Source of the DNA: DASRDR01 sp963812945 [NCBI: uncultured Candidatus Rokubacteria bacterium]
Lineage (GTDB): Bacteria > Methylomirabilota > Methylomirabilia > Rokubacteriales
Assembly (NCBI GenBank): GCA_963812945.1
Contig: CAWEXD010000014.1
Span: forward strand, 1-38,503
Length of the DNA stretch: 38,503 nt
Direction of reading: 5' to 3'
Of the stretch, positions 11,123 through 35,005 are shown in pieces; the first letter of the stretch is position 1, and each line of letters starts with the position of its first letter. The notes under the pieces were generated by a model. It was not told the DNA's origin and did no database searches. It saw nothing but the letters and a program-made list of their open reading frames with translations. A program made the position numbers and the translations under genes.

Positions 11123-12412
11123 ATGACTACAGTGGCTAATCTCGACCAGGACGCGCGCCGGGGCGCCACCGTGCCTGGGTCCGACCGAGCCCGCCTGACC
11201 GTGAGGACCGCGGTGTCACTCCTCGTGGCCGCCGGCATGGTTTCGGCCGGCTGCCAGCAGGAGACCCCTGCGACGGCCGCCTCCCAGAAGTCGGCGTCCG
11301 CGGCTCCGGCCGGCGCGGCCCCGCGGGCCGTCCGGGTCGTACCGGCCACCGAGTCCGCCGTCGCGCGCACGGTCACCGCGACCGGGACGCTGGCCGCCGA
11401 CGAGCAGATCGTGCTCGGCACCAAGGTCGTGGGACGGCTCGCCGAGATCTCCGTCGACCTGGGCAGCCTGGTCAAGCAGGGCCAGCCGGTCGCCCGCATC
11501 GACACCAAGGACTACCAGTACCGCCTGGACCAGTCGGTCGCGGCCCTCAAGCAGGCGCGCGTCCGGCTCGGGCTCCCCGCCGACGGCGATGACGACCGGG
11601 TGGACGCGACGCAGACCGCCGTCGTGCGGCAGGCCAAGGCGCTGCTCGACCAGGCTCAGCTGAACCGCGACCGGCTGGCGCGGCTCTGGGACCAGCAGCT
11701 GGTCGCGCGCGTCGAGCTGGACAACGCGGTCGCGGCGCTCCAGGTTGCCGAGGGCCGTTATCAGGACGCGCTGGAGGAGGTCCAGAACCGTCAGGGCATG
11801 CTGCTTCAGCGCCGCTCGGAGGTCGAGCTCGTCCGCCAGCAGCTTACCGACACGGTGATCGCGTCGCCGATCGACGGCGCCGTCGTCGAGCGCCAGGCCT
11901 CGGTCGGGGAGTACCTCGCCGCCGGGGCGCCGGTGGTCACTCTGGTCCGCCTGCAGCCGCTGCGGCTCCGGCTGTCGGTGCCGGAGCGCGAGGCGATCAG
12001 CGTGCGACGGGGGCAGCCCGTGCGCGTGACGGTGGACGGCGACGCGGGGGTGCACACTGGGACGGTGGCGCGCCTGTCGCCCGCGATCGCCGAGCAGAAC
12101 CGGACGCTCCTCATCGAGGCGGAGATCCCCAATCCCGGGAACCGGCTCAGACCGGGCTCGTTCGCCAAGGCCGAGGTGGTGGTCGAGCAGGGCGACCGGG
12201 TGGTCACGGTGCCGGCGTCGGCCCTGGTCACCTTCGCGGGCGTCGAGAAGGTGCTGACCGTCCGGAGCGGCAAGAGCGAGGAGCTCCGGGTCACCACGGG
12301 GCGGCGCCTCGGCGAGCAGGTCGAGGTGGTCTCGGGAGTGAAGGCCGGCGAGCCCATCATCGTCCAACCTGGGAACCTCACCGGCGGCCAGGCCGTGACG
12401 ATCGAGAAGTAG
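11123..12412 (+). CDS. RND efflux periplasmic adaptor (membrane fusion) subunit
   Basis: A 429-residue lipoprotein-type adaptor of the AcrA/MexA/HlyD family. A hydrophobic segment ends SAGC (Cys44), followed by an Ala/Pro-rich linker. Then come the split barrel-sandwich domain (TGTLAADEQIVLGTKVVGRL; later VIASPIDGAVVERQASVGEY), an alpha-helical hairpin (~residues 125-230) and a beta-barrel domain (LRLSVPEREAISVRRGQPVR). It links the inner-membrane pump to an outer-membrane channel. The ATG at 11123 leaves an unusually long n-region. A GTG at 11201 would give a standard 18-residue lipoprotein signal but has no clear ribosome site, so the start is uncertain. The permease follows after 12 bp, so both are one operon. 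Confidence 0.9.
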   Translation: MTTVANLDQDARRGATVPGSDRARLTVRTAVSLLVAAGMVSAGCQQETPATAASQKSASAAPAGAAPRAVRVVPATESAVARTVTATGTLAADEQIVLGTKVVGRLAEISVDLGSLVKQGQPVARIDTKDYQYRLDQSVAALKQARVRLGLPADGDDDRVDATQTAVVRQAKALLDQAQLNRDRLARLWDQQLVARVELDNAVAALQVAEGRYQDALEEVQNRQGMLLQRRSEVELVRQQLTDTVIASPIDGAVVERQASVGEYLAAGAPVVTLVRLQPLRLRLSVPEREAISVRRGQPVRVTVDGDAGVHTGTVARLSPAIAEQNRTLLIEAEIPNPGNRLRPGSFAKAEVVVEQGDRVVTVPASALVTFAGVEKVLTVRSGKSEELRVTTGRRLGEQVEVVSGVKAGEPIIVQPGNLTGGQAVTIEK

Positions 12413-12424
12413 GGGGGAGAGAGC

Positions 12425-15400
12425 GTGCAGAAGCTCGCCGAGGTCTGCATCCGCAGGCCCGTGTTCGCGACGATGATCGTCCTCGCCCTCGTCGTCGTGG
12501 GCAGCGCGAGCTACTTCCGCCTCGGCGTCGACCGGTTCCCGTCCGTCGAGCTGCCCACGGTGAGCGTCCGCACGGAGCTCCCCGGCGCCTCGGTCGAGGA
12601 GGTGGAGACCCAGGTCACCCAGAAGATCGAGGAGGCGGTCAACACGGTCCAGGGCATCCAGGAGCTCCGGTCGCTCACCGGCCCCGGGACCAGCAACGTC
12701 ACCGTCACCTTCAACCTCAGCCGCTCCGTGGACGTGGCCGCGCAGGACGTCCGTGAGAAGGTCCTGAACGCGGTGCGCAACCTGCCCCGCGACATTCGGT
12801 CTCCCACCGTCTCGAAGCTCGACAACGACCAGGCGCCGGTCCTCACCCTGGCCGTGTCCGGCAACCGAACCCTGCGCGAGCTGACGGAGATCGCCGACAA
12901 GATCGTCAAGGTCGACCTCGAGCGGGCCCTGGGCGTGGGGGAGGTGCGGCTCGTCGGGGGGCTCCTGCGTGCCGTCAACGTCTGGGTCGAGGCGGACCGG
13001 CTGGCGGCGTACCAGATCCCGATCACCGCCGTCCGCGACGCCATCGTGCGGCAGAACGCCGACCTGCCCGGGGGGAACGTCACGGCCGGCCGCCAGGAGC
13101 AGTCGCTCCGGACCATGGGCCGGGTGGTCGACCCCCGCTCGTTCAACGACGTCGTGGTGGCTACGATCAACGGGGCGCCGGTGCGCATCCGCGACATCGG
13201 GCGCGCGGAGGACGGCACCAAGGAGCAGCGCTCGGCCGTCCGCGTGAACGGCGTGCCCACCGTCATCCTGGAGGTCCGCCGTCAGTCGGGCGAGAACACG
13301 GTGGCCGTGATCGCGGCGGTCAAGGCAAACCTGGCCCGCCTCGCGTCGGTGCTGCCCGCCGACATCAAGGTGGACATCATCCGCGACCAGTCGCGGTACA
13401 TCCACGCCGCGCTTCGCGAGATCAACGTCCACCTCGTGCTCGGGAGCATCCTGGCGTCGCTCGTGGTGTTCGCCTTCATGCGAAGCTGGCGCTCCACGAT
13501 CATCGCGGCGGTCGCGATCCCGACGTCGGTGATCTCCGCGTTCGGCATGATGTGGGCGCTCGGCTTCACCCTGAACAGCGTCACGATGCTGGCCCTGGTC
13601 CTGATGGTCGGCATCGTCATCGACGACGCCATCGTCGTGCTCGAGAACATCTTCCGCTTCGTCGAGGAGAAGGGGATGTCCCCGTTCGAGGCGGCGCGCG
13701 CGGCCACCGCCGACATCGGCCTCGCCGTCATGGCCACGACGTTCTCCCTCGTGGTCATCTTCGTTCCGGTGTCCTTCATGTCGTCGGTGTCCGGCCGATT
13801 CCTCTACCAGTTCGGGCTCACGGCGGCCGTGTCGGTGCTGGTGAGCCTCCTGGTGTCGTTCACGCTCACGCCCATGATGAGCGCCCGGATGCTCCGCGCG
13901 GAGGACGCGCTGGGCGAGCACGAGGCGGCCCGCTCGCGGCGCGGGTTCTACCGATGGATCGACGCCACCTACGCGTGGCTGCTCCGCCTGGCGATCACCC
14001 CGATCGGGCGCGTCGTCGTGGCGCTGGTGGCGCTCGCCGTCATCGCCTCCTCGGTGCCGCTCTACGGGATGGTCAAGCGCGAGTACGTGCCGACCGACGT
14101 GGACGAGGCCGAGTTCGAGATGTTCTACGAGGGGCCCGAGGGGATCAGTCTCGCCGCGATGGACGAGGCGGTCCAGGCGATGAGCCGCGAGATCCAGGGA
14201 GTTCGCGGCGTGCGGCTGGCGCTGCTGACCGCGGGCGGCAACTTCCTGGGGCGCGTGAACCAGGGCGGGGGCTACATCCGGATCGCCCCGCACAGCGAGC
14301 GCACGGTCACGCCGGCGCGCCTCTGGGAGGGGCTCCGGCAGGGCGACCCGCTGGCGGCATTCCGCGGCAACTACACGCAGCGCGAGGTGATGCAGGAGGT
14401 CCGGCAGCGCCTGCGGAAGTTCCGCGACATGCGCATCACCGTGCGGAACGTGCCCGGCTTCAACATCGGGGGCGGGAACTTCGACATCGACTACGTCCTC
14501 CGCGGCCCCGACTTGCCGACCCTCGCGCTGTACGGCGAGCAGCTCCGGCAGCGCGCCCAGCAGATCGGGGGGATGCTCGACCTGAACACGACGCTGCGCC
14601 TGGACCGGCCGGAGCTGCGGGTCCAGGTCGACCGGGACCGGGCGGCCGATCTCCGGGTGGACGTCGAGCAGATCGCGACGGCCCTCCGGCTCATGGTCGG
14701 CGGGGACCAGGAGGTCTCCCGCTTCCACGACCCGTTCCTCGACCAGGACTACGACGTCCAGCTGCGTCTCAGCGAGGCCGACCGGCGCGACCCCCGCACC
14801 ATCGAGCGGCTCTACGTCTCGAGGGCCTCGTCGACCGCGTCCACCTCGCTCGGGGCCGCCCCCCAGGTCGGGCTGGCGCCCGGCGGCGGTCTGGTTCGGC
14901 TCGACAGCGTCGTGAAGATCGTGCCCGGGCAGACGGCGTCCCGGATCGACCGGTCGGAGCGCCAGCGCGAGAACCGCCTCCGCGGGGTCGTCGCCCCCGG
15001 CTACGGTCAGGCCGACCGGATCGACGCTCTCCGTCAGGCGACCGCCGAGCTCAAGCTGCCCGCCGGCTACACGACGGTCGTGTCGGGGCGGGCCCGCGAA
15101 TTCGAGCGGACCTTCGTGGAGTTCCTCTGGGTCTTCCTGCTGGCCGTGATCTTCATGTACATGATCCTGGCCTCCCAGTTCGAGAGCGTGGTCCACCCCT
15201 TCACCATCCTGCTCTCGCTGCCGCTGGCGGTGCCCTTCGCGCTCTTCTCGCTCTGGTACACGGGCAACACCATCAACCTCTACTCGGCCCTCGGCATCCT
15301 GGTCCTCTTCGGCGTCGTCAAGAAGAACGCCATCCTCCAGATCGACCACATGAACACGCTCAGGCAGGCGGGGCACGATCGGCGCACGGCCATCCTCCTC

Positions 15401-15814
15401 GGCAACCGGAACCGGCTGCGGCCGATCCTGATGACGACGCTCGCGCTGGTGGGGGGCATGCTGCCGCTGTGGATGGGGACCGGTCCCGGCTCGGAGGAGC
15501 GGCGCGCGATCGCCGTCGTGGTCATCGGCGGCCAGACCCTCTCGCTCCTGCTGACGCTCCTGGTGACGCCGGTGGCCTATCTCTGGCTCGACGACCTGGC
15601 GCGGCTCCTGGGCGGGCGCCGCCGCGCTGATGAGGCAGGGCCGGCGGCGGCGCGTCACGAGCCCGCGGCCGGTGCCGTTCCCGCGCTCGCGGTCGCGGGC
15701 GACGTGAGCGGGGCGCGGAACGGTCCGACATGGTCCGGCGAGCCGACCCCGGTCAGCGGGGTCGGCGATCGCCTGCCGGCCGCCCCGCGCGACCGCGAGA
15801 AGCGCCTCCCGTAA
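12425..15814 (+). CDS. RND efflux permease (AcrB/MdtB-like)
   Basis: An inner-membrane proton-driven efflux permease of 1129 residues. The N-terminus (RRPVFATMIVLALVVVGS) is the usual first transmembrane helix. The proton-relay pair is visible as Asp400-Asp401 in GIVIDDAIVVLEN in TM4, and the relay lysine is in FGVVKKNAIL in the second half; both periplasmic porter halves are present. It is about 80 residues longer than most family members because of a charged, Pro/Ala/Arg-rich cytoplasmic tail after the last helix (residues ~1065-1129). The GTG start is preceded by a long G/A-rich ribosome site. No TolC-type channel gene is in the window, so the pump must use one encoded elsewhere. Hydrophobic drug-type (HAE) substrate class is likely but unproven. 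Confidence 0.93.
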   Translation: MQKLAEVCIRRPVFATMIVLALVVVGSASYFRLGVDRFPSVELPTVSVRTELPGASVEEVETQVTQKIEEAVNTVQGIQELRSLTGPGTSNVTVTFNLSRSVDVAAQDVREKVLNAVRNLPRDIRSPTVSKLDNDQAPVLTLAVSGNRTLRELTEIADKIVKVDLERALGVGEVRLVGGLLRAVNVWVEADRLAAYQIPITAVRDAIVRQNADLPGGNVTAGRQEQSLRTMGRVVDPRSFNDVVVATINGAPVRIRDIGRAEDGTKEQRSAVRVNGVPTVILEVRRQSGENTVAVIAAVKANLARLASVLPADIKVDIIRDQSRYIHAALREINVHLVLGSILASLVVFAFMRSWRSTIIAAVAIPTSVISAFGMMWALGFTLNSVTMLALVLMVGIVIDDAIVVLENIFRFVEEKGMSPFEAARAATADIGLAVMATTFSLVVIFVPVSFMSSVSGRFLYQFGLTAAVSVLVSLLVSFTLTPMMSARMLRAEDALGEHEAARSRRGFYRWIDATYAWLLRLAITPIGRVVVALVALAVIASSVPLYGMVKREYVPTDVDEAEFEMFYEGPEGISLAAMDEAVQAMSREIQGVRGVRLALLTAGGNFLGRVNQGGGYIRIAPHSERTVTPARLWEGLRQGDPLAAFRGNYTQREVMQEVRQRLRKFRDMRITVRNVPGFNIGGGNFDIDYVLRGPDLPTLALYGEQLRQRAQQIGGMLDLNTTLRLDRPELRVQVDRDRAADLRVDVEQIATALRLMVGGDQEVSRFHDPFLDQDYDVQLRLSEADRRDPRTIERLYVSRASSTASTSLGAAPQVGLAPGGGLVRLDSVVKIVPGQTASRIDRSERQRENRLRGVVAPGYGQADRIDALRQATAELKLPAGYTTVVSGRAREFERTFVEFLWVFLLAVIFMYMILASQFESVVHPFTILLSLPLAVPFALFSLWYTGNTINLYSALGILVLFGVVKKNAILQIDHMNTLRQAGHDRRTAILLGNRNRLRPILMTTLALVGGMLPLWMGTGPGSEERRAIAVVVIGGQTLSLLLTLLVTPVAYLWLDDLARLLGGRRRADEAGPAAARHEPAAGAVPALAVAGDVSGARNGPTWSGEPTPVSGVGDRLPAAPRDREKRLP

Positions 15815-23289: not shown

Positions 23290-23365
23290 CGGTGGCGACC
23301 GGTGATCCAGGCGGCGATGGCACGTTCTGGACGCGATGGTGGGGCACGCCCGGGAATGTCCGCTA

Positions 23366-23446
23366 CTGGACCAAGGTCCAGCCCGGTACTGGACCAAGGT
23401 CCAGTTGATCGGTCTCATCCGCGATGCGAGAAACGATGTCGGCAGC
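23366..23446 (+). promoter_or_regulatory. Tandem perfect dyads and right copy of the element
   Basis: CTGGACCAAGGTCCAG, a perfect 7+7 palindrome around AA, occurs at 23366-23381 and again at 23389-23404, a 23-bp repeat distance of about two helical turns. The second one is followed directly by TTGATC and by the block shared with 18188-18245. The element points toward the glycine-zipper gene and ends 105 nt before its ATG. Two phased palindromes abutting a -35-like hexamer are typical of activator or repressor sites; no good -10 is visible at 17-18 nt. The adjacent FixJ-like regulator is the obvious candidate binder. Confidence 0.6.
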
Positions 23447-23551
23447 TGCGCGACCTGGACGCCTCGGTGTCCGGAGCGTGCGAGACCCGTGACGGTGTGC
23501 GTCGCGCAGAGTGGCTGGTCGCCGATCAACGCGCGATGGGGGAAACGTCTC

Positions 23552-24334
23552 ATGGGACCCAAGCAGGCCTGTGCGGGCGCGCGGAGGAACACGCCAACGC
23601 TGGTGTTCATCGCGGGCATCGTGATCCTCATGCTGGCCGGGATGTTCCTGCCGCGAGTGGGATGGACCCAGGTGGGCCGTCGTGGACCTCCGGTCAGTCC
23701 CGGAGCGTACGGCGCCCCCTCCGGCGGCTATGGCGCGCCGGGAGGCGGGTACGGCTATCAGGGCGGTTCGGCGCCGGCGCCCCCGGCCTACCCCCGGGCC
23801 GGCTACGGCGCACCAGCACCGCAATACGCGCCTGGCGGATATGGACCTCCCGGCTCCCTGCCACAAGGGTACGCCCCGCCGGCCTATCAGCAGCCCTACG
23901 CCTATCCCCCTCCGGGGCAGAACCTACAGCAAGCGGCGGCGACCCAGACGCAGTGCCAGTCATGGGCGAGCGCGCAATCGGGGTACAACCCGAACGCGCC
24001 AGGCAGCCCGGGCACGACGGTAGCGACAGGCCAGGTCGCGATGGCGGGTGGACGGTCGGTCGTCCGGGGTGGCGCGCGGGGGGCCGCCGCAGGCGCAGCG
24101 GGGGGCGCGGCCGGCGCGGCCGTCCAGGGTGAGGATACCGGGAAGACCGCCGCGACGGGCGCGGCGGCGGGAGCTGCCGTCGGGGGGGTGATGGGCGGGG
24201 TCAAGCGGCGAGACCAGCGGTCCGCCGAAATGCAGCAACAGAACCAGGCGCTGCAGCAGCAGAGCCAGCAAAGCGTCGCCTATAGCCGCGCCCTGGAGGC
24301 ATGTCTGGCGGGGCAAGGCTACACCGTGCGCTAG
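23552..24334 (+). CDS. Secreted Pro/Gly/Tyr-rich protein with glycine zipper
   Basis: 260 residues from an ATG with a GGGGGAAA ribosome site. A hydrophobic segment (~16-33) is a signal peptide or anchor. Residues 44-125 are low-complexity Pro/Gly/Tyr/Ala. A short conserved block follows (CQSWASAQSGYNPNAPG, 135-151), then a long Gly/Ala glycine-zipper stretch (~167-216) that could insert in a membrane, a Gln-rich segment (~221-241) and a conserved tail EACLAGQGYTVR. It is a paralogue of the protein encoded at 24904-25497, which lacks the zipper. Probably envelope-associated; function unknown. The upstream dyads suggest control by the nearby two-component system. Confidence 0.72.
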   Translation: MGPKQACAGARRNTPTLVFIAGIVILMLAGMFLPRVGWTQVGRRGPPVSPGAYGAPSGGYGAPGGGYGYQGGSAPAPPAYPRAGYGAPAPQYAPGGYGPPGSLPQGYAPPAYQQPYAYPPPGQNLQQAAATQTQCQSWASAQSGYNPNAPGSPGTTVATGQVAMAGGRSVVRGGARGAAAGAAGGAAGAAVQGEDTGKTAATGAAAGAAVGGVMGGVKRRDQRSAEMQQQNQALQQQSQQSVAYSRALEACLAGQGYTVR

Positions 24335-24346
24335 AGGAGAAAACGC

Positions 24347-24772
24347 ATGAGTCAGTGGATCCGGTGGGCAGGACGTGGCTGGCTAGTGATCGGCCTGTGC
24401 GCGACGGCGCCAGGCATGGCAGGGGCGGCGGAGTTGGACGGCTCGGCCCCGATCCTCTGTGTCGTCATGGGCCTCACCGAGTGCGATCGCTGGGGGGCGT
24501 GCGAGCGGGTCGGACGGGAGGTTCTGGAGCTTCCGCCGTTCGTGCGGGTAAACGTGGCCGCGAAGGCCCTCGAGGCGATGGATGGGTCGGGCCGCACGAC
24601 GGCGATCCACTCGTCAGCGCTGGTGAAGGAGCAGGCGCGGCTGATCCTCCAGGGCGGCGAGAACGGGCGGGCCTGGAGTCTTGTGATCGACCAGAAAACG
24701 GGCGAGATGACGGCCGCGGTCGCCGACCACGATGGCGGCTTCCTCATCGCTGGCGTCTGCACGCTGCCATAG
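24347..24772 (+). CDS. Small secreted protein of unknown function
   Basis: 141 residues with a signal peptide (hydrophobic core ~11-22, cleavage near AGAAE). The mature chain has four cysteines (in PILCVVMGLTEC, GACERVG and near the end in AGVCTLP), suggesting two disulfides. There is no low-complexity sequence and no domain I can name. Its ATG is 13 bp after the upstream stop, with GGAGAAAA as ribosome site. It lies between the two paralogous Pro/Gly/Tyr-rich proteins, so the three may work together at the cell envelope. Confidence 0.7.
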   Translation: MSQWIRWAGRGWLVIGLCATAPGMAGAAELDGSAPILCVVMGLTECDRWGACERVGREVLELPPFVRVNVAAKALEAMDGSGRTTAIHSSALVKEQARLILQGGENGRAWSLVIDQKTGEMTAAVADHDGGFLIAGVCTLP

Positions 24773-24903
24773 CCGAGACCAGGGGAGTCAGCAGCAGTGC
24801 TGCCTCTACGAGCAGCGCCAGGCCCACCTGTGGGCGGGGCGATGAGCGGACCGTGTCTCTGCCCGAACTCGCCCGCGAGGCGACCAGAGAAACGAGGAGA
24901 GCG

Positions 24904-25497
24904 ATGAAGATTCGAGCAGTGGTGACGGCGATCGTGGTCCTGGTGGTGGCCGGCGCGCTCTGGCCGCGAGTGGGGACGGCTCAGCCGGTCCGTCCGGCGG
25001 GGCCGCCTGCCTGGCAGCAGCAAGGAGGCGCGCCGCTCCCGCCGGGCGGTTACCCGGCTCCGGGCGCGTACGCCCCACCGCCCGGTGGCTACCCGGCACC
25101 CGCCGGTCCGGCACCGGGTTGTCCACCAGCGGCAAGCTACGCGCCATCCGGGGATCTCGCCCTGAACGTCCCGCCTCCAGCCTATCAACCGCCCTATGCC
25201 TATCCCCAGCAGGGGCAGAACCCGCAGCAGGCCACGACCGACCAGAGCGAGTGTGGGGCGTGGGCGTCTCGGCAAACGGGATTCGACCCGAACGCGCCGG
25301 GCGGCCCCTCCTCCGGGGTGGGCGCTGCCGGCGCGTCGTCCCCTCCTGGGGTGTTCGGCGGGATCCAGCGGCGGGAGGAGCGGCGGGACGTGCGGCGGCA
25401 GCAGCTGGTCGGGCAGAACGCGGCCGGTTCCCAGCAGGACGGGTACATACGGGCACTGAACGCCTGCCTGACCGCCCGGGGCTACACGGTGCGCTAG
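24904..25497 (+). CDS. Secreted Pro/Gly/Tyr-rich protein without glycine zipper
   Basis: 197 residues with a clear signal peptide (MKIRAVVTAIVVLVVAGALW, cleavage near GTAQP) and a GAGGAGA ribosome site. A Pro/Gly/Tyr/Ala-rich segment (~30-105) leads to the conserved block CGAWASRQTGFDPNAPG (117-133) and a basic Arg/Gln-rich linker, and it ends NACLTARGYTVR. The PPAYQxPYAYP segment, the CxxWA block and the ACLxxxGYTVR tail match the protein at 23552-24334 closely, but the ~50-residue glycine zipper is absent. The two conserved cysteines may pair. Function unknown. Confidence 0.72.
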   Translation: MKIRAVVTAIVVLVVAGALWPRVGTAQPVRPAGPPAWQQQGGAPLPPGGYPAPGAYAPPPGGYPAPAGPAPGCPPAASYAPSGDLALNVPPPAYQPPYAYPQQGQNPQQATTDQSECGAWASRQTGFDPNAPGGPSSGVGAAGASSPPGVFGGIQRREERRDVRRQQLVGQNAAGSQQDGYIRALNACLTARGYTVR

Positions 25498-26864: not shown

Positions 26865-29213
26865 ATGAGCAGGGTGAGCTCTCGGGTTTACAGGGCAGCG
26901 GGGATCCTCGCCACAGCGCTTGCGGTCGGGCTTGCCGTATCCCCGGCGACTCTGCGGGGGCAGACCTCCGTACCGACCAAGCCGGCGCCGGCAGCTCCCG
27001 CCAAACCCGCGGCTTCCGCCCCGGCCCAGTCTCCGGCCGCCGCGCCGGCCAAGCCGAACCCGCTGCGGGACGTGTTCTTCGGCGAAACACACCTCCATAC
27101 GAGCTGGTCGTTCGATGCGTATGTCTTCGGAAACACGCTGGCCGGGCCCGAAGACGCGTACCAATTCGCCTTGGGCAAGCCGATCCGGCATCCCGCGGGC
27201 TACATGGTGCAGATGAAGCGTCCGCTCGATTTCGCGGCCGTCACGGATCACGCGGAATACATGGGCACGATCCCCCTCGCCAACGATCCACGGTCGGACT
27301 TGAGCAAGCTGCCGATCGCGCGACAGCTGACCGTCAAGAGCAAGGACGATATCCAGAGGATCTATCTCTTCCTCGCCACTACGATCCTCAAGAACGAGCC
27401 GATCAAGGAGCTCACAAGCCCCGAGGTCGCCGGCTCCGTCTGGAGACGGGTCGCCGACATTGCCGACAAGTTCTACAAACCGGGCAAGTTCACCACCTTC
27501 GCCGCGTACGAATGGAGCTCGACGCCCGACAATCGCAATTTGCACCGCAATCTGATCTTCAGAGATACGAAGAAGATTCCGATAGTGCCGTTTAGCGCGA
27601 TCGATTCCACCCATCCGGAGGAGCTGTGGACCTGGATGGATGGCCAGCGCAAGGCCGGGAACGAGCTGCTCGCCATTTCGCATAACGCGAACCTCTCCGA
27701 TGGCGTGATGTTTCCGCTGGAGGTCGACAGCAAGGGCCGGCCGATCGATGCCGCGTGGACGCAATCCCGGGTGAACAACGAGCCGCTGTCCGAGATACAG
27801 CAGCTCAAGGGCGCATCGGAAACGCATCCGGCGCTATCGCCCAGCGACGAGTTCGCCCAGCACGAGATCATGGAGTATCTGCTGGGCGGCGTCGACCGGG
27901 GCCCCAGGCTGCACGGCAGCTACATCCGCGAGGCGTACCAGAACGGGCTCGCGCTACAGGACACGCGCGGCTACAACCCGTACAGGTTCGGCCTCGTGGG
28001 CGCGAGCGACACGCATGGCACCGCGATGGCGCATACGCAATCGAACTATTTCGGCGGGCACGCCCTGCTCGATGCTACGCCGCAAGGCCGACTCAGCGGC
28101 GAGAAGCATTCCGGGATGACGTCGGACCGGTTTGCGACGTCCGGATTGGGCGGCGTCTGGGCCGAGGAAAATACCCGCGAGGCGATCTTTGCCGCCATGC
28201 AGCGCAAGGAAACATTCGCGACCAGTGGCGTGCGCATCAGAGTACGCTTCTTCGGCGGCTGGGGCTTCGCGCCCGGCGTCCTGCAAGGCAAGGATTGGGT
28301 CAGGACCGGGTACGCGAACGGCGTTCCGATGGGCGGCGATCTGCCGGCGGCGACATCCAAGGCGCCGACGTTCATCGTGTGGGCCGTCAAGGATCCCGAC
28401 GACGCCAGTCTCGATCGGATCCAGATCGTCAAGGGATGGACGCGCAACGGCCAGATCTTCGAGAAGATCTACAACGTCGCCTGGTCCGGGGACCGCGCGG
28501 TCAAGGGCGGCGCCCGAATGTCCGATGCCCTCGTTCGGCGCGGCGAGGCCGAGTTGCCGCCGGTGCGCAACACCGTGGATGTCAAGAACGCGACGTATTC
28601 CAACACGAGCGGCGCGGTGGAGTTGAAAACGGTCTGGACCGACCCGGACTTCGATCCGAGCCAGTTTGCTTTCTACTATGCCCGGGTGCTGCAGATTCCG
28701 ACGCCGCGCTGGACGACGTACGACGCGAAGAAGCTCGGTGTCCCGCCGCCGGCCAACGTGCCGACGACGGTTCAGGATCGTGCGTGGACGTCTCCGATCT
28801 GGTATTCGCCGAGCGACGAAGCGCGCAAAGCGGCGAAGCCTGGGACGACCGTTGCCGAATTGAAGCAGAAGGGCGCCATCGCGCTCGGTGACGCGCAGCT
28901 GACGCAATTGATCGTCGGAAAGACGCTCAAGATCCGCAACACGGTGACAGGGCAGCGCTTCGAGATCCTCTACGGACCCGAGGGGCGGCGCCTGATCCTC
29001 AGCGTCGACGGCAAGCAGCCGCCCGCCGGTCAGGTGGGCGACGTAATGCATAGCGGCGAGCTCGGGTCGCCGGCGCACTACGAGATCCGCGAGAACAGGA
29101 TCATGACGACGATCGCGGGTGCACCATTCGAGGTGAGTGTCTACAAGATCGGCGACAAGTACGTCGCGGCCCGCAGTAACGAGTTCGGGTACGCCAACTA
29201 CGAGGTGGAATAG
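26865..29213 (+). CDS. Exported DUF3604 protein (PHP-like metal-dependent enzyme)
   Basis: 782 residues from an ATG with GGGAGGGG upstream. A signal peptide (~1-33) and an Ala/Pro/Lys linker (~37-65) precede the DUF3604 domain. Likely metal ligands typical of PHP-fold phosphoesterases are visible: GETHLHTSWSFDA (His76, His78), VTDHAEYMG (Asp128, His129, Glu131), AISHNANLSDG and VGASDTHGT. PHP-fold enzymes use two or three metals to cleave phosphoester-type bonds; DUF3604 proteins themselves have no established reaction that I know. Expected location is the periplasm. The stop is followed without a gap by the prolyl isomerase gene, then by HupE-type genes. The gene looks somewhat less GC-rich than neighbours, which may mean a different origin. 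Confidence 0.88.
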   Translation: MSRVSSRVYRAAGILATALAVGLAVSPATLRGQTSVPTKPAPAAPAKPAASAPAQSPAAAPAKPNPLRDVFFGETHLHTSWSFDAYVFGNTLAGPEDAYQFALGKPIRHPAGYMVQMKRPLDFAAVTDHAEYMGTIPLANDPRSDLSKLPIARQLTVKSKDDIQRIYLFLATTILKNEPIKELTSPEVAGSVWRRVADIADKFYKPGKFTTFAAYEWSSTPDNRNLHRNLIFRDTKKIPIVPFSAIDSTHPEELWTWMDGQRKAGNELLAISHNANLSDGVMFPLEVDSKGRPIDAAWTQSRVNNEPLSEIQQLKGASETHPALSPSDEFAQHEIMEYLLGGVDRGPRLHGSYIREAYQNGLALQDTRGYNPYRFGLVGASDTHGTAMAHTQSNYFGGHALLDATPQGRLSGEKHSGMTSDRFATSGLGGVWAEENTREAIFAAMQRKETFATSGVRIRVRFFGGWGFAPGVLQGKDWVRTGYANGVPMGGDLPAATSKAPTFIVWAVKDPDDASLDRIQIVKGWTRNGQIFEKIYNVAWSGDRAVKGGARMSDALVRRGEAELPPVRNTVDVKNATYSNTSGAVELKTVWTDPDFDPSQFAFYYARVLQIPTPRWTTYDAKKLGVPPPANVPTTVQDRAWTSPIWYSPSDEARKAAKPGTTVAELKQKGAIALGDAQLTQLIVGKTLKIRNTVTGQRFEILYGPEGRRLILSVDGKQPPAGQVGDVMHSGELGSPAHYEIRENRIMTTIAGAPFEVSVYKIGDKYVAARSNEFGYANYEVE

Positions 29214-30155
29214 ATGCGCGCGATATCCGGGCTAAGGCGTGCGCTGGGCGAGCCGCTGTTGCAGTTCATCGTGATGGGCGTGTTGCTGTTCGCGGGCTAC
29301 CGGCTCGTTCATCCCGAGCGGCTGGCCAAGGGCGAGGACCAGCGCATCGAGCTGACCGCCGCCGACGTGCGGCAACTCGAGATCGTGTGGACGGCGCAAT
29401 GGCATCGGGCACCGACGCCGGATGAGCTGCAGGGACTCGTGGCGAGCCGAGTCCGCGAGGAGATCCTCTACCGCGAGGCGCTCGCGCTCGGCCTCGAGCG
29501 CGGCGACACGATCATCAAGCGCCGGTTGGCGCAGAAAATGGAGTTCCTGGCCGACGACCTTTGGGCCGTGCGCACTCCGTCGGTCGAAGAGGTCCGCGCC
29601 TGGTATTCGCGCACTTCCGCGCAGTTCGCGGATCCTGATCGCCGTTCCTTCCGACACCTATACTTTTCCGCGGACCGCCGTGGCGATCGTGCGCAGCAGG
29701 ACGCCGTGCGTGCGCTTGTCAAGCTCGGCCGGACGCCCACCGATACACTCGCGCTCTCGGCCATCGGCGACCCGTTCATGTTCCAGGAGCACTACGCCGA
29801 TCGCACGCCGGAGCAGATGGCCGCCATCTTCGGCAGTCACTTCGCCACGGCCGTGCGTCAGCTGCCGGTCGGCACGTGGCAGGGGCCGATCGAGTCGGGC
29901 CTCGGGTGGCACCTCGTGTTCGTCGACACGCTGATTGCCGGCCGCGTGCCGTCCTTCGAGGAAGTCGAGACGGATGTGAAGGCGGCATGGCTCGCCGAGC
30001 AGAAGGCGATGGCGTGGGACAAGGCGTTCACGGAGATGCGCGCGAAGTACACGGTGCTGCTGCCCGTGCCTCCCGAGAATGCGTCGTCGGGGCCCCGGGC
30101 CGCGTCGCTGTCGTCGGGAGGTAGGTCGGAGGCCGCGACGAAAGGGGCGCGGTGA
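29214..30155 (+). CDS. Membrane-anchored PpiC/SurA-type peptidyl-prolyl isomerase
   Basis: 313 residues. The start abuts the preceding stop. An uncleaved-looking N-terminal helix (LLQFIVMGVLLFAGYRLV, ~15-32) anchors it in the inner membrane. An alpha-helical SurA-like segment (~40-120) is followed by a parvulin-like domain (~120-255) with FRHLYFSADR, and GTWQGPIESGLGWHLVFVDT, the usual end of the PpiC fold. It should help fold exported proteins, most simply the DUF3604 protein encoded just upstream. The C-terminal ~30 residues are disordered Ser/Gly/Ala-rich. Its TGA overlaps the GTG of the next gene (GTGA). Confidence 0.85.
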   Translation: MRAISGLRRALGEPLLQFIVMGVLLFAGYRLVHPERLAKGEDQRIELTAADVRQLEIVWTAQWHRAPTPDELQGLVASRVREEILYREALALGLERGDTIIKRRLAQKMEFLADDLWAVRTPSVEEVRAWYSRTSAQFADPDRRSFRHLYFSADRRGDRAQQDAVRALVKLGRTPTDTLALSAIGDPFMFQEHYADRTPEQMAAIFGSHFATAVRQLPVGTWQGPIESGLGWHLVFVDTLIAGRVPSFEEVETDVKAAWLAEQKAMAWDKAFTEMRAKYTVLLPVPPENASSGPRAASLSSGGRSEAATKGAR

Positions 30156-31168
30156 GCGTCGCGATGCGCGCCGTCGGAACTCTCATCGCCGTCTGGTTAC
30201 TGGCGACGGCGTTGCTCGTGCCCGCAGCGGGGGCTCACGAGTCGCGCCCCGCGTACCTCGAGATCAAGGAGACGGCGTCGGGCCAGTTCTCGGTGCTCTG
30301 GCGCACGCCGGGCAAGCGCTTGCCGCTGGTGCTGAAGATGCCCGAGGGCGTCACGAACCTGAAGGAGCCCGTGGTCCAGGAGCTCACCGATTCACTGGTG
30401 GAGCGCCGGTGGATCGACGCGGGGCGGGATGGGCTCGCCGGCCAGCGCATCGAGATCGTCGGGCTTCAGTTGACGATCACCGACGTGCTCGTTCGCGTCC
30501 AGTTCCTCGATGGCCGGACGTTGCAGACCATCGCACGCCCGTCGCGGCCGTGGGTCGAGATCGCCGCCTCGCCGTCATGGTGGCAGGCGATCGTCACGTA
30601 CATCGTGGAGGGAGTCCGGCACATCCTGTTTGGCGCCGATCACCTGCTGTTCGTGCTGGGCCTGCTGCTGATCGTGAAGGATCGGTGGATGCTGGTAAAG
30701 ACGATCACCGCCTTCACCATCGCCCACAGCCTCACGCTCGCCATCGCGACGCTCGGCTATGCCGAGGTGCCGATGCTGCCGCTCAACGCCGCGATCGCCC
30801 TGAGCATTCTTTTTCTCGGACCCGAGATCGTGCGCTCCTGGCGGGGCCAGACGAGCCTCACGATCCGCCACCCGTGGGTTGTGGCGTTCGCCTTCGGGCT
30901 GCTCCACGGCTTCGGCTTCGCCAGCGCGCTGACCGGTGCCGGTCTGCCGCGGGGCGACCTGCCGCTGGCGCTCCTGTCCTTCAACGTCGGCGTCGAAGTC
31001 GGGCAGCTCGGTTTCGTGGGGCTCAGTCTCGCAACGGAGCGTGCGTTCCGCGTGCTCGAGATCCGCTGGCCGCGCTGGGCGCAGGTGCTGCCCGGTTACG
31101 CGGTCGGCACGCTGGGCGCGTTCTGGACCGTGCAGCGCCTGGTGGTGCTCGTCGGAGGCGCACGGTGA
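30152..31168 (+). CDS. HupE/UreJ family membrane protein with periplasmic N-domain
   Basis: 338 residues from a GTG overlapping the preceding stop by 4 bp. A signal peptide (to ~28, ending AGAHE) leads to a beta-rich extracytoplasmic domain (~30-140). Then come six to seven membrane helices with the HupE hallmarks: a His followed by ADH (GVRHILFGADHLLFVLGLLL), FTIAHSLTLAIATLGY and LLHGFGFASAL. HupE/UreJ proteins are nickel (or cobalt) permeases in the characterised cases, linked to hydrogenase or urease; neither enzyme is in this window. In the present operon the metal could supply the DUF3604 enzyme; this is inference. Confidence 0.85.
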   Translation: MSVAMRAVGTLIAVWLLATALLVPAAGAHESRPAYLEIKETASGQFSVLWRTPGKRLPLVLKMPEGVTNLKEPVVQELTDSLVERRWIDAGRDGLAGQRIEIVGLQLTITDVLVRVQFLDGRTLQTIARPSRPWVEIAASPSWWQAIVTYIVEGVRHILFGADHLLFVLGLLLIVKDRWMLVKTITAFTIAHSLTLAIATLGYAEVPMLPLNAAIALSILFLGPEIVRSWRGQTSLTIRHPWVVAFAFGLLHGFGFASALTGAGLPRGDLPLALLSFNVGVEVGQLGFVGLSLATERAFRVLEIRWPRWAQVLPGYAVGTLGAFWTVQRLVVLVGGAR

Positions 31169-31191
31169 GAACGGAAACGGGGAGGCCAAGC

Positions 31192-31776
31192 ATGGCGCGC
31201 TGGATGATCGTGCTCGTGGCCGGGTGCCTCTGGGTAGAGCCCGCCTTCGCACACGTGGGACAGGGCGAGGCCGCCGGGTTCGTAAGCGGCCTGGCCCATC
31301 CGATCTCGGGGCTGGACCACGTGCTGGCGATGGTGGCGGTCGGCCTGTGGGGGGCGCAACTGGGCAGCCCGGCCATCTGGCTACTGCCCGTCGCGTTTCC
31401 GATGGTCATGGCACTGGGCGGAATGCTCGGGCTCGTGGGCGTGCAGCTTCCCGGCGTCGAGTACGGGATCGCCGCGTCCGCCATCCTGCTCGGCGCGGCC
31501 GTGGTGTTCGAGCTGCGTCCGCCCCTCGCCGTGGCGGCGGCGCTGGTCGCGTTCTTCGCCATCTTCCATGGGCACGCCCACGGGACGGAGCTGCCACCGG
31601 GCCAGAGCGCCATGCTCTACAGCATGGGCTTCGTCGCGGCGACGGGCTGCCTGCATGCGATGGGCATCGGTGTCGGCGAGGCCCGGCGATGGGTATGGGG
31701 TAAGGGACTGCTACGCGCTAGCGGCGCCGTCGTCGCGGTGGGCGGGGTCTTCTTCATGTGGAAGGCGCTCACATGA
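31192..31776 (+). CDS. HupE/UreJ family permease
   Basis: 194 residues, the compact classical HupE/UreJ size, from an ATG preceded by GGGGAGG. The signal peptide ends EPAFAHVG, so His is at the mature N-terminus, which is typical of the family. Six or so helices follow with HPISGLDHVLAMVAVGLWG (the HxxxGxDH motif) and FHGHAHGTELP, both expected metal-binding sites. The nearest characterised function is nickel import. It follows the larger HupE-like gene by 23 bp, and its stop overlaps the next gene by 4 bp (ATGA). Confidence 0.88.
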   Translation: MARWMIVLVAGCLWVEPAFAHVGQGEAAGFVSGLAHPISGLDHVLAMVAVGLWGAQLGSPAIWLLPVAFPMVMALGGMLGLVGVQLPGVEYGIAASAILLGAAVVFELRPPLAVAAALVAFFAIFHGHAHGTELPPGQSAMLYSMGFVAATGCLHAMGIGVGEARRWVWGKGLLRASGAVVAVGGVFFMWKALT

Positions 31777-32387
31777 AGGACGTCGACCGACCCGGGTTGC
31801 CGCTTCACGCGGTGGCCGTTCTTGCGATGATGGCATGTCCCGCCCTTGCCGAGGCGCACCTGAACTCGAGCGGCATGGGGCCGGTCTACGACGGGGTGGT
31901 GCACTTCGTCACGAGTCCCGAGGACATGGCCCCGGTGCTGGCGCTCGCCCTCCTGGCCGGGTTGCGTGGCGCCGACCACGGGCGCAGGACCCTCTTCGTG
32001 CTCCCGGTCACCTGGTTGCTGGGAGGTCTCGTCGGAACCACGTCTCTCGCGACAAGTGGCGGCGCTCTGTCCTCCGCGATCGTTGTCCTGTTACTGGGTG
32101 GACTGCTGGCGACCGACGCGAAGCTCTCCCTCGGTGTGACCACAGTGCTCGCCGGGCTGCTCGGCCTGTCCCGCGGATACCTGAATGGCAGCGGGATGGG
32201 ACAGCTCGGGGTCGCGGTGGCGGCGCTCCTCGGCCTGGCGTCGGCGGTGTTCGTCTTGGTCGCGCTCGCGGCCGCGCTCGCGGCCGGCCTCCGCACCCAG
32301 TGGGCCCGGATCTCCGTGCGCGTCGCTGGAAGCTGGATCGCAGCCAGCGGGCTCTTGATGCTCGGCTGGGCCGTCCGCGCACGGTAG
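31773..32387 (+). CDS. HupE/UreJ-like membrane protein, divergent
   Basis: 204 residues from the ATG overlapping the previous stop. A signal peptide (~10-29, ending AEAH) leaves His near the mature N-terminus. About six hydrophobic helices follow, with residual family motifs: HFVTSPEDMAPVLALALLAG in the position of the His/Asp-His motif, and LRGADHGRRTLFVLP. The canonical FHGHAHG is missing, replaced by a GLSRGYLNGSGMG segment, so metal transport may be altered or lost. It ends the operon. It could be a subunit working with the other two HupE proteins. Confidence 0.72.
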   Translation: MKDVDRPGLPLHAVAVLAMMACPALAEAHLNSSGMGPVYDGVVHFVTSPEDMAPVLALALLAGLRGADHGRRTLFVLPVTWLLGGLVGTTSLATSGGALSSAIVVLLLGGLLATDAKLSLGVTTVLAGLLGLSRGYLNGSGMGQLGVAVAALLGLASAVFVLVALAAALAAGLRTQWARISVRVAGSWIAASGLLMLGWAVRAR

Positions 32388-34148: not shown

Positions 34149-34261
34149 ACGACGATGTCGGCCCGGCCTTTGTCGGCGCACCGGCCTGGCCGTTGATGGC
34201 CAACACACCGACCTCGGACCGGCAAACCGGCCCGATGCTTCTTCAGGGGAGGACTGTCACC

Positions 34262-35005
34262 ATGCGCAAGAACGCGCCGACGCCCCTAGACAATCGGGTG
34301 AACCGCCGCGCCTTCCTCACGACCACCAGCATCGCGTCTGCCACCGCGATTCTGGGCATCGTCCCTGCCGGCCGCCTCGCGTACGCGGCGACGCTGACCA
34401 AGGAGCAGCGCGACAAGCTGACGCCGGACGACATCATCGCGTTGATGAAGAAGGGCAATGAGCGCTTTCGCATTGGGCAGGAATCCCCGCACGACTATCT
34501 CGTCCAGCAGAAGGCCAGCGCCAAGGGTCAGTATCCCGCCGCGGTGATCCTGAGCTGCATCGACTCCCGGGCGCCCGCCGAGACGATCATGGACCTGGGC
34601 ATCGGCAACGTCTTCAATGCGCGCGTGGCCGGCAACATCGCCAACGACGACATCCTCGGGAGCATGGAGTTCGCCTGCAAGGTCGCCGGGGCGAAGGTTG
34701 TCCTGGTGATGGGGCACACCGCCTGCGGCGCGATCAAGGGCGCGATCGACAAGGTGCAGCTTGGCAAGCTCACCGGGCTGCTCGCCAAGATTCGCCCGGC
34801 CGTGGAGGCGACCCGGTATCAGGGCGAGCGCTCGGCGACGAACTACGACTTTGTGGACGCGGTGGCGCGGAAGAATGTCGAGCTGACGATGGCGGACGTC
34901 CGCAAGCGCAGTGCAGTCCTGGCCGACCTCGGAGCCTCGGGCGCGATCAAGATTGTCGGTGCGATGTACAACCTCGACTCAGGACTGGTCGAGTTCTTCG
35001 GTTGA
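34262..35005 (+). CDS. Tat-exported beta-carbonic anhydrase
   Basis: 247 residues from the ATG with AGGGGAGG upstream. An alternative ATG at 34145 overlaps the previous stop but would bury the signal sequence. VNRRAFLTTTSIASATAIL (13-31) is a Tat signal motif (Arg15-Arg16, Phe, Leu) followed by a hydrophobic core, so the enzyme should be exported folded with its zinc. The beta-class zinc ligands are visible: Cys99 in LSCIDSR with the Asp101-Arg103 dyad, and His152 and Cys155 in GHTACGA. It interconverts CO2 and bicarbonate. A periplasmic position suggests a role in CO2 capture, buffering or in a lineage-specific process. It lies between two lipoprotein genes. Confidence 0.92.
   Translation: MRKNAPTPLDNRVNRRAFLTTTSIASATAILGIVPAGRLAYAATLTKEQRDKLTPDDIIALMKKGNERFRIGQESPHDYLVQQKASAKGQYPAAVILSCIDSRAPAETIMDLGIGNVFNARVAGNIANDDILGSMEFACKVAGAKVVLVMGHTACGAIKGAIDKVQLGKLTGLLAKIRPAVEATRYQGERSATNYDFVDAVARKNVELTMADVRKRSAVLADLGASGAIKIVGAMYNLDSGLVEFFG

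Follow-up and report, generated by a model that had tools for sequence, protein, structure and literature searches.

Bacteria must place the right metal in enzymes whose folding takes place outside the cytoplasm; to our knowledge few dedicated systems for this insertion are known. NifM is a prolyl isomerase that works with a metalloenzyme, and SlyD is another such isomerase in metalloenzyme maturation. Among metal-binding membrane proteins, the anglerases Ang-1 and Ang-2 combine a signal peptide, an N-terminal His, a periplasmic beta-sandwich and a HupE_UreJ_2 permease in one chain (PMC12537917; PDB 9GCE). Ang-1, the crystallised anglerase, prefers copper, bound at 74 nM, then nickel, bound at 220 nM, and is slightly destabilised by zinc; the same paper presents HupE proteins as importers that bring metal into the cytoplasm (PMC12537917). 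ZrgA is made as a free protein, carries a His-rich loop and is partnered by a MacB-like ABC permease (excerpt of PMC9820375). For the enzyme considered below, the comparison is with the PHP-fold phosphoesterases (PDB 3e38, 2anu and RNase AM, 7ug9 and 9etk) and with the CehA/McbA carbamate hydrolases, CehA being said to use His313, 315, 453 and 495 (excerpt of PMC8292978).

Here we analyse a five-gene operon at positions 26865-32387 of contig CAWEXD010000014.1 (assembly GCA_963812945.1, DASRDR01 sp963812945), whose 38,503 nt constitute the window. An earlier note had listed five genes with spacings of 0, -4, +23 and -4 bp, and all five open reading frames are present with the same spacings, scoring in Pfam as DUF3604 (708 bits), Rotamase_2 (64), HupE_UreJ_2 (147), HupE_UreJ (196) and, for the fifth gene, 43 bits against a cut-off of 23. 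Neither hydrogenase nor urease families occur among the 19 window proteins scanned with Pfam, in line with the same note. In the open-licence literature we found no description of a DUF3604-PpiC-HupE module, nothing on HupE with PpiC and its neighbourhood, and no mention of DUF3604 besides one row of a Chlamydia transposon table; the papers listed for HupE with peptidylprolyl isomerase look unrelated by title, and the main text of PMC12537917 contains neither 'peptidyl' nor DUF3604.

Results

The first gene, P0001 (26865..29213, plus strand as are all five, 782 aa), matches PF12228 at 708 bits against a curated cut-off of 20.4 and carries a hydrophobic signal segment at residues 8-30 by hydropathy. 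Up to about residue 450 its AF2 model (pLDDT 86.7, pTM 0.87) has the fold of the PHP structures 3e38 (Z 16.1, rmsd 3.5, 236 aligned) and 2anu (Z 15.9, rmsd 3.4, 209 aligned), and of RNase AM (7ug9, 9etk) at Z 8.8-8.9, with unrelated rows beginning at 6.6; Foldseek also matched 3e38 at E 1e-5, with a low whole-model TM-score of 0.24. Other Foldseek rows, apart from 3e38 and 7ug9, look like noise, and PDB searches by sequence and profile returned no solved relative. Across 50 aligned sequences H76, H78, H129, E216, H227, H273, D382 and H384 are invariant and D128 nearly so. We take this set to form the metal site, with His76-x-His78 (27090..27098) and Asp382-x-His384 (28008..28016) presumably being the first and last PHP-type ligand pairs. 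The conserved His/Asp/Glu set is common to DUF3604 and the PHP-fold phosphoesterases; DUF3604 differs from them by its signal segment and by a C-terminal half that is large and rich in beta structure. The His layout of CehA, as given in the excerpt of PMC8292978, is unlike the residue layout of P0001, and P0001 has no NCBIfam match at 1e-3, in a library where the presence of a CehA model is not assured. Signal segment, PHP fold and invariant ligand set bear out the earlier description of an exported PHP-like enzyme, and P0001 is, by predicted activity, an exported PHP-fold metallohydrolase with a conserved ligand set.

P0002 (29214..30155, 313 aa) is a peptidyl-prolyl isomerase of the PpiC type that has a single membrane segment, at its N-terminus, and its Rotamase_2 match (64.3 bits, cut-off 27) and hydrophobic segment at residues 10-33 agree with its earlier designation as a membrane-anchored prolyl isomerase. 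By profile it matches solved PpiC-type isomerases and SurA in the PDB, with a best E of 2e-11. Assignment of P0002 as NifM was rejected, its 29.2 bits lying far under the NCBIfam cut-off of 168.2. The resemblance to NifM is a weak similarity and a proposed likeness of role, in that each would work with a metalloenzyme, whereas P0002 is membrane-anchored and paired with a HupE protein.

P0003 (30152..31168, 338 aa, GTG start) is a bipartite receptor-permease in which a signal peptide, a beta-sandwich and a HupE_UreJ_2 membrane domain (PF13795, 146.8 bits) follow one another (AF2 pLDDT 92.5). The receptor domain, residues 29-137 (30236..30562), begins with His29 directly after AGA, and the membrane domain (30578..31162), with helices between residues 143 and 337 of the model, contains His157, Asp163, His164, His192 and His252, all invariant in 54 aligned sequences. 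His29 is kept in 65 of 67 sequences (66 close relatives and the window), whereas in the 31 P0003-type proteins of an even draw of genomes the N-terminal position is His in 19 cases and Asp in the other 12. Among the close relatives, the two that lack this His are L036, which has an ambiguous letter there, and L039.

The closest folds to the receptor domain are the zinc-binding ZrgA and PA4063 (PDB 8f1b, 8ezw, 7amx), with Z 10.3 against ZrgA 8f1b (rmsd 2.7, 103 aligned) where unrelated rows reach 8.3. By a one-residue extrapolation the N-terminal His of P0003 adjoins the position of ZrgA site 1, and the second site-1 His corresponds by position to Ser31. Unlike ZrgA, P0003 is fused to HupE, has a single His in its receptor domain and is without the His-rich loop, and the operon in the window encodes no ABC permease or ATPase. 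The order of parts in P0003 is that of the anglerases, yet the receptor domain comprises about 110 residues against the 169-residue chain of 9GCE, and P0003, unlike anglerases, is paired with PpiC. Neither phmmer nor profile searches matched P0003 to 9GCE, which another HupE_UreJ_2 protein does match at 6e-17, and hhalign of the two domains aligned 27 columns at a probability of 23%. 9GCE is not in the VIA structure list for P0003, an uninformative absence.

P0004 (31192..31776, 194 aa; PF04955, 196.2 bits) is a canonical HupE in which His21, 36, 43, 126, 130 and 155, Asp42 and Glu133 are kept in 24 of 24 sequences. P0005 (31773..32387, 204 aa; PF04955, 43 bits) is its divergent HupE-like partner, which has lost most HupE ligands: His29 and His44 are present in 23 of 23 sequences, no other His is conserved at 90%, and in the membrane domain only His44 stands besides the N-terminal His29, in agreement with the earlier remark that the third HupE-like protein lacks the canonical metal motif. 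A His lies directly behind the signal peptide in P0003, P0004 (His21) and P0005 (His29), with the AxA motif read by eye, a feature absent from that note.

We examined linkage in 398 Pseudomonadota genomes drawn evenly, with 8-19 kb fetched around each P0003-type HupE, defined as the membrane part plus the receptor domain. Of 31 such places, PpiC adjoins all 31 and a full-length DUF3604 lies within the fetched stretch at 26, upstream at 21, downstream at 3 and on the opposite strand at 2, so that the genes stay close to one another in varying order. DUF3604 and P0003-type proteins each occur in 26 genomes, 25 of them common to both and one of these with a DUF3604 remnant (Fisher p 2e-37, the genomes not being independent). 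Among 9 other HupE_UreJ_2 loci, neither PpiC (0/9) nor DUF3604 (0/9) was found, and in a set of short loci that overlaps the even draw and includes genomes chosen through P0001, PpiC adjoins 16 of 17 P0003-type genes and 0 of 46 others. Four of the five P0003-type loci without a full-length local DUF3604 belong to genomes that have a DUF3604 copy or a remnant of one, and in G435 a P0003-type gene is present with no DUF3604 found. Eight loci of close relatives have no local P0003, and a full-length copy exists elsewhere in the genome for four of them. At four loci (L013, L020, L025, L043) the contig continues: L020 and L043 have a copy elsewhere, L013 has only a broken copy, and Variovorax L025 has DUF3604 with a full-length P0003-type gene nowhere in its genome. 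The loci L001, L028, L030 and L048 are cut by contig ends, no P0003-type gene being found for L030, where DUF3604 is present, and at L040 PpiC is more than 2.5 kb away.

The genes thus co-occur outside this genome far beyond chance, contrary to the outcome that the earlier note had set against its own reading, and DUF3604-PpiC-HupE (P0001-P0003) is a widespread conserved unit. The five-gene order held for its first three genes only; P0004 and P0005 accompany them in 23 and 22 of 73 close relatives and at 2 of 31 even-draw loci, and are an optional add-on. For P0005, BLAST found a single clear relative and a piece of 61 residues in the 398 genomes, and a profile search added a 61-bit match in L168.

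In a second phylum (199 genomes) 19 genomes have a P0003-type protein, 22 have DUF3604 and 16 have both. P0003-type loci were fetched for 11 of the 19, with PpiC in 9; L196 begins at a contig end. In three genomes a P0003-type gene is present with no DUF3604 found, one of them being G524, where 20 kb contain neither PpiC nor DUF3604. Six have DUF3604 without a P0003-type gene: the contig ends just downstream of DUF3604 in G153, G495 and G171, no PpiC is found in about 1.7 kb downstream in G569 and G196, and in the sixth, G561, DUF3604-PpiC lies beside a divergent P0003 homologue without HupE ligands that is followed by an ATPase, a MacB-type permease and a ZnuA-family protein, a ZrgA-style arrangement from a single genome. 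Seven genomes (G494, G513, G522, G531, G540, G565, G589) have at least six distinct DUF3604 genes, a lower bound as only six candidates were scored per genome, and one P0003-type gene each, the pattern predicted if a single apparatus served many enzymes; G557 has five DUF3604 genes, one partial.

No Pfam family recurs more than 3 times among 121 flanking open reading frames or 6 times among 140, some of which are not genes, as they were picked by length. DUF1254/DUF1214 lead both sets; AraC-type regulators (2 and 5), FadL-type channels and sulfatases are among the few neighbours that recur, a set with a catabolic look. A crude scan of 249 stretches upstream of DUF3604 or PpiC reading frames, using consensus strings, gave no metal-regulator box (Zur, Fur, Mur, NikR, CueR and others) above background, and the window contains no known RNA element at gathering score. 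In the 15 kb fetched from an Alisedimentitalea plasmid (locus L074) there is a PpiC-HupE pair but no DUF3604; nearby are a DUF1826 gene and a gene for a GTP-binding protein, presumably of COG0523.

Discussion

The near-constant association of DUF3604, PpiC and a metal-binding HupE suggests an undescribed folding and metal-supply system for DUF3604. We give an even chance to a model in which the operon encodes an exported PHP-fold metallohydrolase together with its own maturation apparatus, dedicated to its folding and metal supply, where the metal is probably zinc; the metal, the direction of its flow and the substrate are our reading of an observed linkage. DUF3604, which has a signal segment, would leave the cytoplasm unfolded, and the membrane-anchored parvulin PpiC may act at the inner membrane's outer face to help fold either DUF3604 or the receptor. 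The periplasmic beta-sandwich of P0003, as folded in the model, would capture a transition metal, most likely zinc, at a site to which the N-terminal His (Asp in some relatives) would contribute, and the receptor would exchange this metal with its own HupE permease. The metal would reach the DUF3604 active site during folding. P0004 and P0005 would be a further HupE pair, an optional one, serving this route. It is rather doubtful that PpiC and P0003 form one complex, in which HupE would let cytoplasmic metal out, the receptor would hand it over and DUF3604 folding would be tied to metal insertion, one machine serving a paralogous enzyme family. The dedicated metal-supply and folding system proposed in the earlier note is favoured by co-occurrence, the PHP ligands, the ZrgA-like domain and the ZnuA-family protein of G561; the proposal rests on linkage and homology, and its five-gene order is not a conserved unit.

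Several observations count against supply. As HupE proteins are described as cytoplasmic importers, metal would be taken away from the periplasm, and genomes with only DUF3604 or only a P0003-type gene occur in both phyla. At 5 of 31 places PpiC stands beside a P0003-type HupE with no full-length DUF3604 nearby, so that PpiC could serve the receptor, with P0003 as its client, and not the enzyme. Import would suit metal scavenging, which we consider unlikely, where DUF3604 would hydrolyse an external metal-holding compound, P0003 would capture the freed metal and import it into the cytoplasm, and PpiC would fold the receptor domain; PpiC is tied more tightly to P0003 (31/31) than to DUF3604 (26/31), and DUF1826, found near the plasmid pair, appears by name in the legend of a figure about Zur-regulated clusters (PMC2770081). 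The genomes with many DUF3604 genes and one P0003-type gene are more suggestive of a single apparatus with many clients, however, and neither the scan for metal-uptake regulator boxes nor the catabolic look of the neighbours fits scavenging. PpiC-HupE might also be an independent two-gene unit of metal or envelope homeostasis, with DUF3604 a separate catabolic hydrolase that has regulation and habitat, not mechanism, in common with it, as the pairs without nearby DUF3604 (L153, L155, L160, L170 and the plasmid locus) and the diversity of genes outside the triad would allow; near one-to-one co-occurrence across the 398 genomes, the DUF3604 copies or remnants in the genomes of four of five exceptional loci and the survival of proximity through changes of order make this improbable.

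The identity of the metal bears on either route. Against zinc supply we count the Asp in 12 of 31 proteins, Ser31, the copper and nickel preference of Ang-1, the lack of a regulator box in our scan and of a known RNA element in the window, and the single genome of G561. That the metal is copper or nickel, and P0003 a further class of anglerase, is possible if somewhat unlikely: the Ang-1 chain 9GCE starts HEVRP, as do many P0003 relatives, and Ang-1 has the nanomolar affinities given above, but P0003 has no sequence or profile match to 9GCE, its closest receptor folds bind zinc and G561 has a ZnuA-family protein.

Read as a dedicated maturation system for DUF3604, this near one-to-one co-occurring module would offer a testable case of metal insertion outside the cytoplasm. 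Natural variants for experiments are at hand in the N-terminal His or Asp, the G561 ABC transporter behind a degenerate HupE and the optional P0004/P0005 pair. The module places DUF3604 in a functional context and points to a role of one HupE subtype beyond hydrogenase and urease.

Conserved unit of the operon

The five open reading frames at 26865-32387, with spacings of 0, -4, +23 and -4 as the earlier note claimed, are real and match by Pfam DUF3604 (P0001), Rotamase_2 (P0002, a membrane-anchored PpiC), HupE_UreJ_2 (P0003, a permease with a receptor domain), HupE_UreJ (P0004) and, weakly, HupE_UreJ again (P0005). A beta-barrel protein gene is the upstream neighbour, and on the downstream side there are genes for a bestrophin-like protein, DUF3313 and a carbonic anhydrase. 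The carbonic anhydrase family protein (34157-35005; PF00484, NF011765 above cut-off) carries an N-terminal extension that by eye resembles a twin-arginine signal. Elsewhere in the window, adjacent genes at 11123-15814 encode an HlyD/CusB-type adaptor and an AcrB-type pump, and two adjoining Pro/Gly/Ala-rich ORFs (23336-24334 and 24301-25497) share similar stretches (WAS.Q.G..PNAPG) and, by eye, are apparently tandem paralogues.

A P0001 scan of genome contigs returned 73 loci, assigned by title to proteobacteria, Acidobacteria and other groups. PpiC is present in 69 of them and P0003 in 66, in one case as a fragment cut by the end of the contig; DUF3604 stands upstream of PpiC-HupE in 61 and downstream in 3. 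Surveyed across these loci, the five-gene order described in the earlier note holds for its first three genes, whereas P0004 is found in 23/73 and P0005 in 22/73; the conserved unit is DUF3604-PpiC-HupE (P0003). All three genes are also present in five of six plasmid regions chosen by hand. The sixth, L074 (62-8002, Alisedimentitalea plasmid), has only the PpiC-HupE pair, without DUF3604 within the 15 kb examined, near genes for DUF1826, a GTP-binding protein and a transporter of the ABC type with the annotation dipeptide/oligopeptide/nickel.

Co-occurrence in two phyla

Because the 73 loci were retrieved via P0001 and are akin to one another, we took a second sample, an even draw of 398 genomes from the phylum to which G003 (Microbulbifer, locus L024) belongs; G003 was itself included though chosen for having the module. 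P0003 matches at 68 places in this draw, 31 of which (26 genomes) extend into the N-terminal domain. We examined all 31 of these P0003-type loci and, as controls, nine of the remaining 37 matches. PpiC adjoins the P0003-type gene at 31/31 places and full-length DUF3604 lies within the stretch examined at 26, with a remnant at one more, whereas the nine controls, which have only the membrane domain in common with P0003, show neither PpiC (0/9) nor DUF3604 (0/9). DUF3604 is present in 26/398 genomes, and 25 are common with the P0003-type genomes, counting a remnant in G249 (Fisher p 2e-37, p-values being descriptive only because the genomes are not independent), so that the genes do co-occur outside this genome. 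The two exceptions are G209, with a divergent DUF3604 and no P0003-type gene, and G435, with a P0003-type gene and no DUF3604 found in the genome; of the five loci lacking a full-length local DUF3604, three are in genomes with full copies elsewhere, one has a remnant and the fifth is that of G435. In 68 short loci from PF13795 searches, which overlap the even draw, include eight P0003-type loci from genomes chosen via P0001 and count one gene twice (L136, L144), PpiC occurs at 16 of 17 P0003-type loci, the seventeenth beginning at a contig end, and at 0/46 other HupE_UreJ_2 loci; five carry P0004-like proteins only.

Another phylum, that of G004 (Edaphobacter, locus L035), was covered by 199 genomes, with P0003-type set at E below 1e-60. 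P0003-type genes occur in 19, DUF3604 in 22 and both in 16. PpiC is present at 9/11 P0003-type loci examined (11 of the 19 genomes); at one of the other two, in G144, the P0003-type gene begins at the contig end, and from the 20 kb examined in G524 both PpiC and DUF3604 are absent. Seven genomes (G494, G513, G522, G531, G540, G565 and G589) each carry one P0003-type gene and at least six distinct DUF3604 genes, kinship being ignored, and G557 has one with five, one of them partial. No DUF3604 lies near the PpiC-HupE pair of G565, G531 or G557 within the 12 to 19.5 kb examined. In such genomes a single pair may act for many enzymes.

An exported family with CxxC (CPLC, CAIC and similar) directly behind an apparent signal peptide in 14/14 members forms a cluster present in 14/73 P0001 loci (e.g. 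L042 10496-11662, L067 10496-11623 and L026 6169-7224), and may be a fourth component. It occupies the DUF3604/PpiC interval in 12 loci, the PpiC/HupE interval in L026 and a contig end in L048, and the members scanned had no Pfam match. A DUF1254/DUF1214 cluster (single-linkage, its representative exported-looking) occurs in 17/73 loci, among them L010 (6175-7869).

Structural models and conserved residues

Sequence comparison found no solved relative of DUF3604. The P0001 model (pLDDT 86.7, pTM 0.87) resembles 3e38 (Z 16.1), 2anu (Z 15.9), EndoQ, RNase AM and others, the best eight matches listed all being PHP structures. All 50 sequences aligned conserve H76, H78, H129, E216, H227, H273, D382 and H384, presumably as the PHP metal centre.

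P0003 is modelled (pLDDT 92.5) as a signal helix, a beta-sandwich and a membrane-helix bundle. The nearest fold to the sandwich is that of ZrgA (Z 10.3, rmsd 2.7, 103 residues), then that of PA4063 (Z 9.3 to 9.7), with unrelated rows at Z 8.3 and below. ZrgA zinc site 1 (His35, His37, Glu66) is the sole widely conserved site according to PMC9820375. The alignment starts with P0003 residue 30 on ZrgA residue 36, placing His29, extrapolated by one residue, beside ZrgA His35, and Ser31 at the place of His37. PMC12537917 describes anglerases, HupE_UreJ_2 proteins that have a receptor domain and begin with a His; there a DALI search with crystal structure 9GCE gave the ZrgA entry 8F1B as closest. 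Since 9GCE is matched by another HupE_UreJ_2 protein (6e-17) and no sequence match to it was found for P0003, P0003 belongs to a class of its own, with a shorter chain. An N-terminal His occurs in 65/67 P0003, 24/24 P0004 and 23/23 P0005 proteins (close relatives, window included); among the even-draw P0003-type proteins the residue is His in 19/31 and Asp in 12/31, and therefore the His is not required throughout.

In G561 the gene next after DUF3604 and PpiC encodes P0006 (712 residues), related to P0003 (BLASTP 3e-11, hhalign 98.8%). Three genes come after it, for an ABC ATPase, a permease of the MacB type and a member of the ZnuA family, the stretch being L188 11604-16532. Alignments show it without His157, Asp163, His164, His192, His252 and the N-terminal His of P0003. 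As a protein resembling its C-terminal part precedes the same three ABC genes in G189, in a locus whose examined 19 kb contain neither DUF3604 nor PpiC, P0006 looks like the P0003 line fused with a metal ABC transporter. G569 has a similar C-terminal part, but these ABC genes are absent from the 12 kb examined. Though only one genome, G561 independently connects the P0003 slot with metal transport.

Proposed model

The linkage of the three genes, the conserved residues and, on models, the folds are observed, and we propose a model in which PpiC and P0003 would mature DUF3604, with zinc as the probable metal and a presumed direction of metal flow. The main difficulty for such maturation lies in the description of HupE proteins as importers. 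Metal may exit via HupE, the enzyme may be served by the receptor domain alone, or the system may scavenge, P0003 importing into the cytoplasm metal freed by DUF3604; this last reading agrees with the described import and is less probable than maturation. Among the open-licence papers searched, one, unrelated, mentions DUF3604, and none was found to link HupE and PpiC. The module is built from known families, and what maturation of DUF3604 would represent, accessory genes of a metalloenzyme, is likewise a known kind of system.
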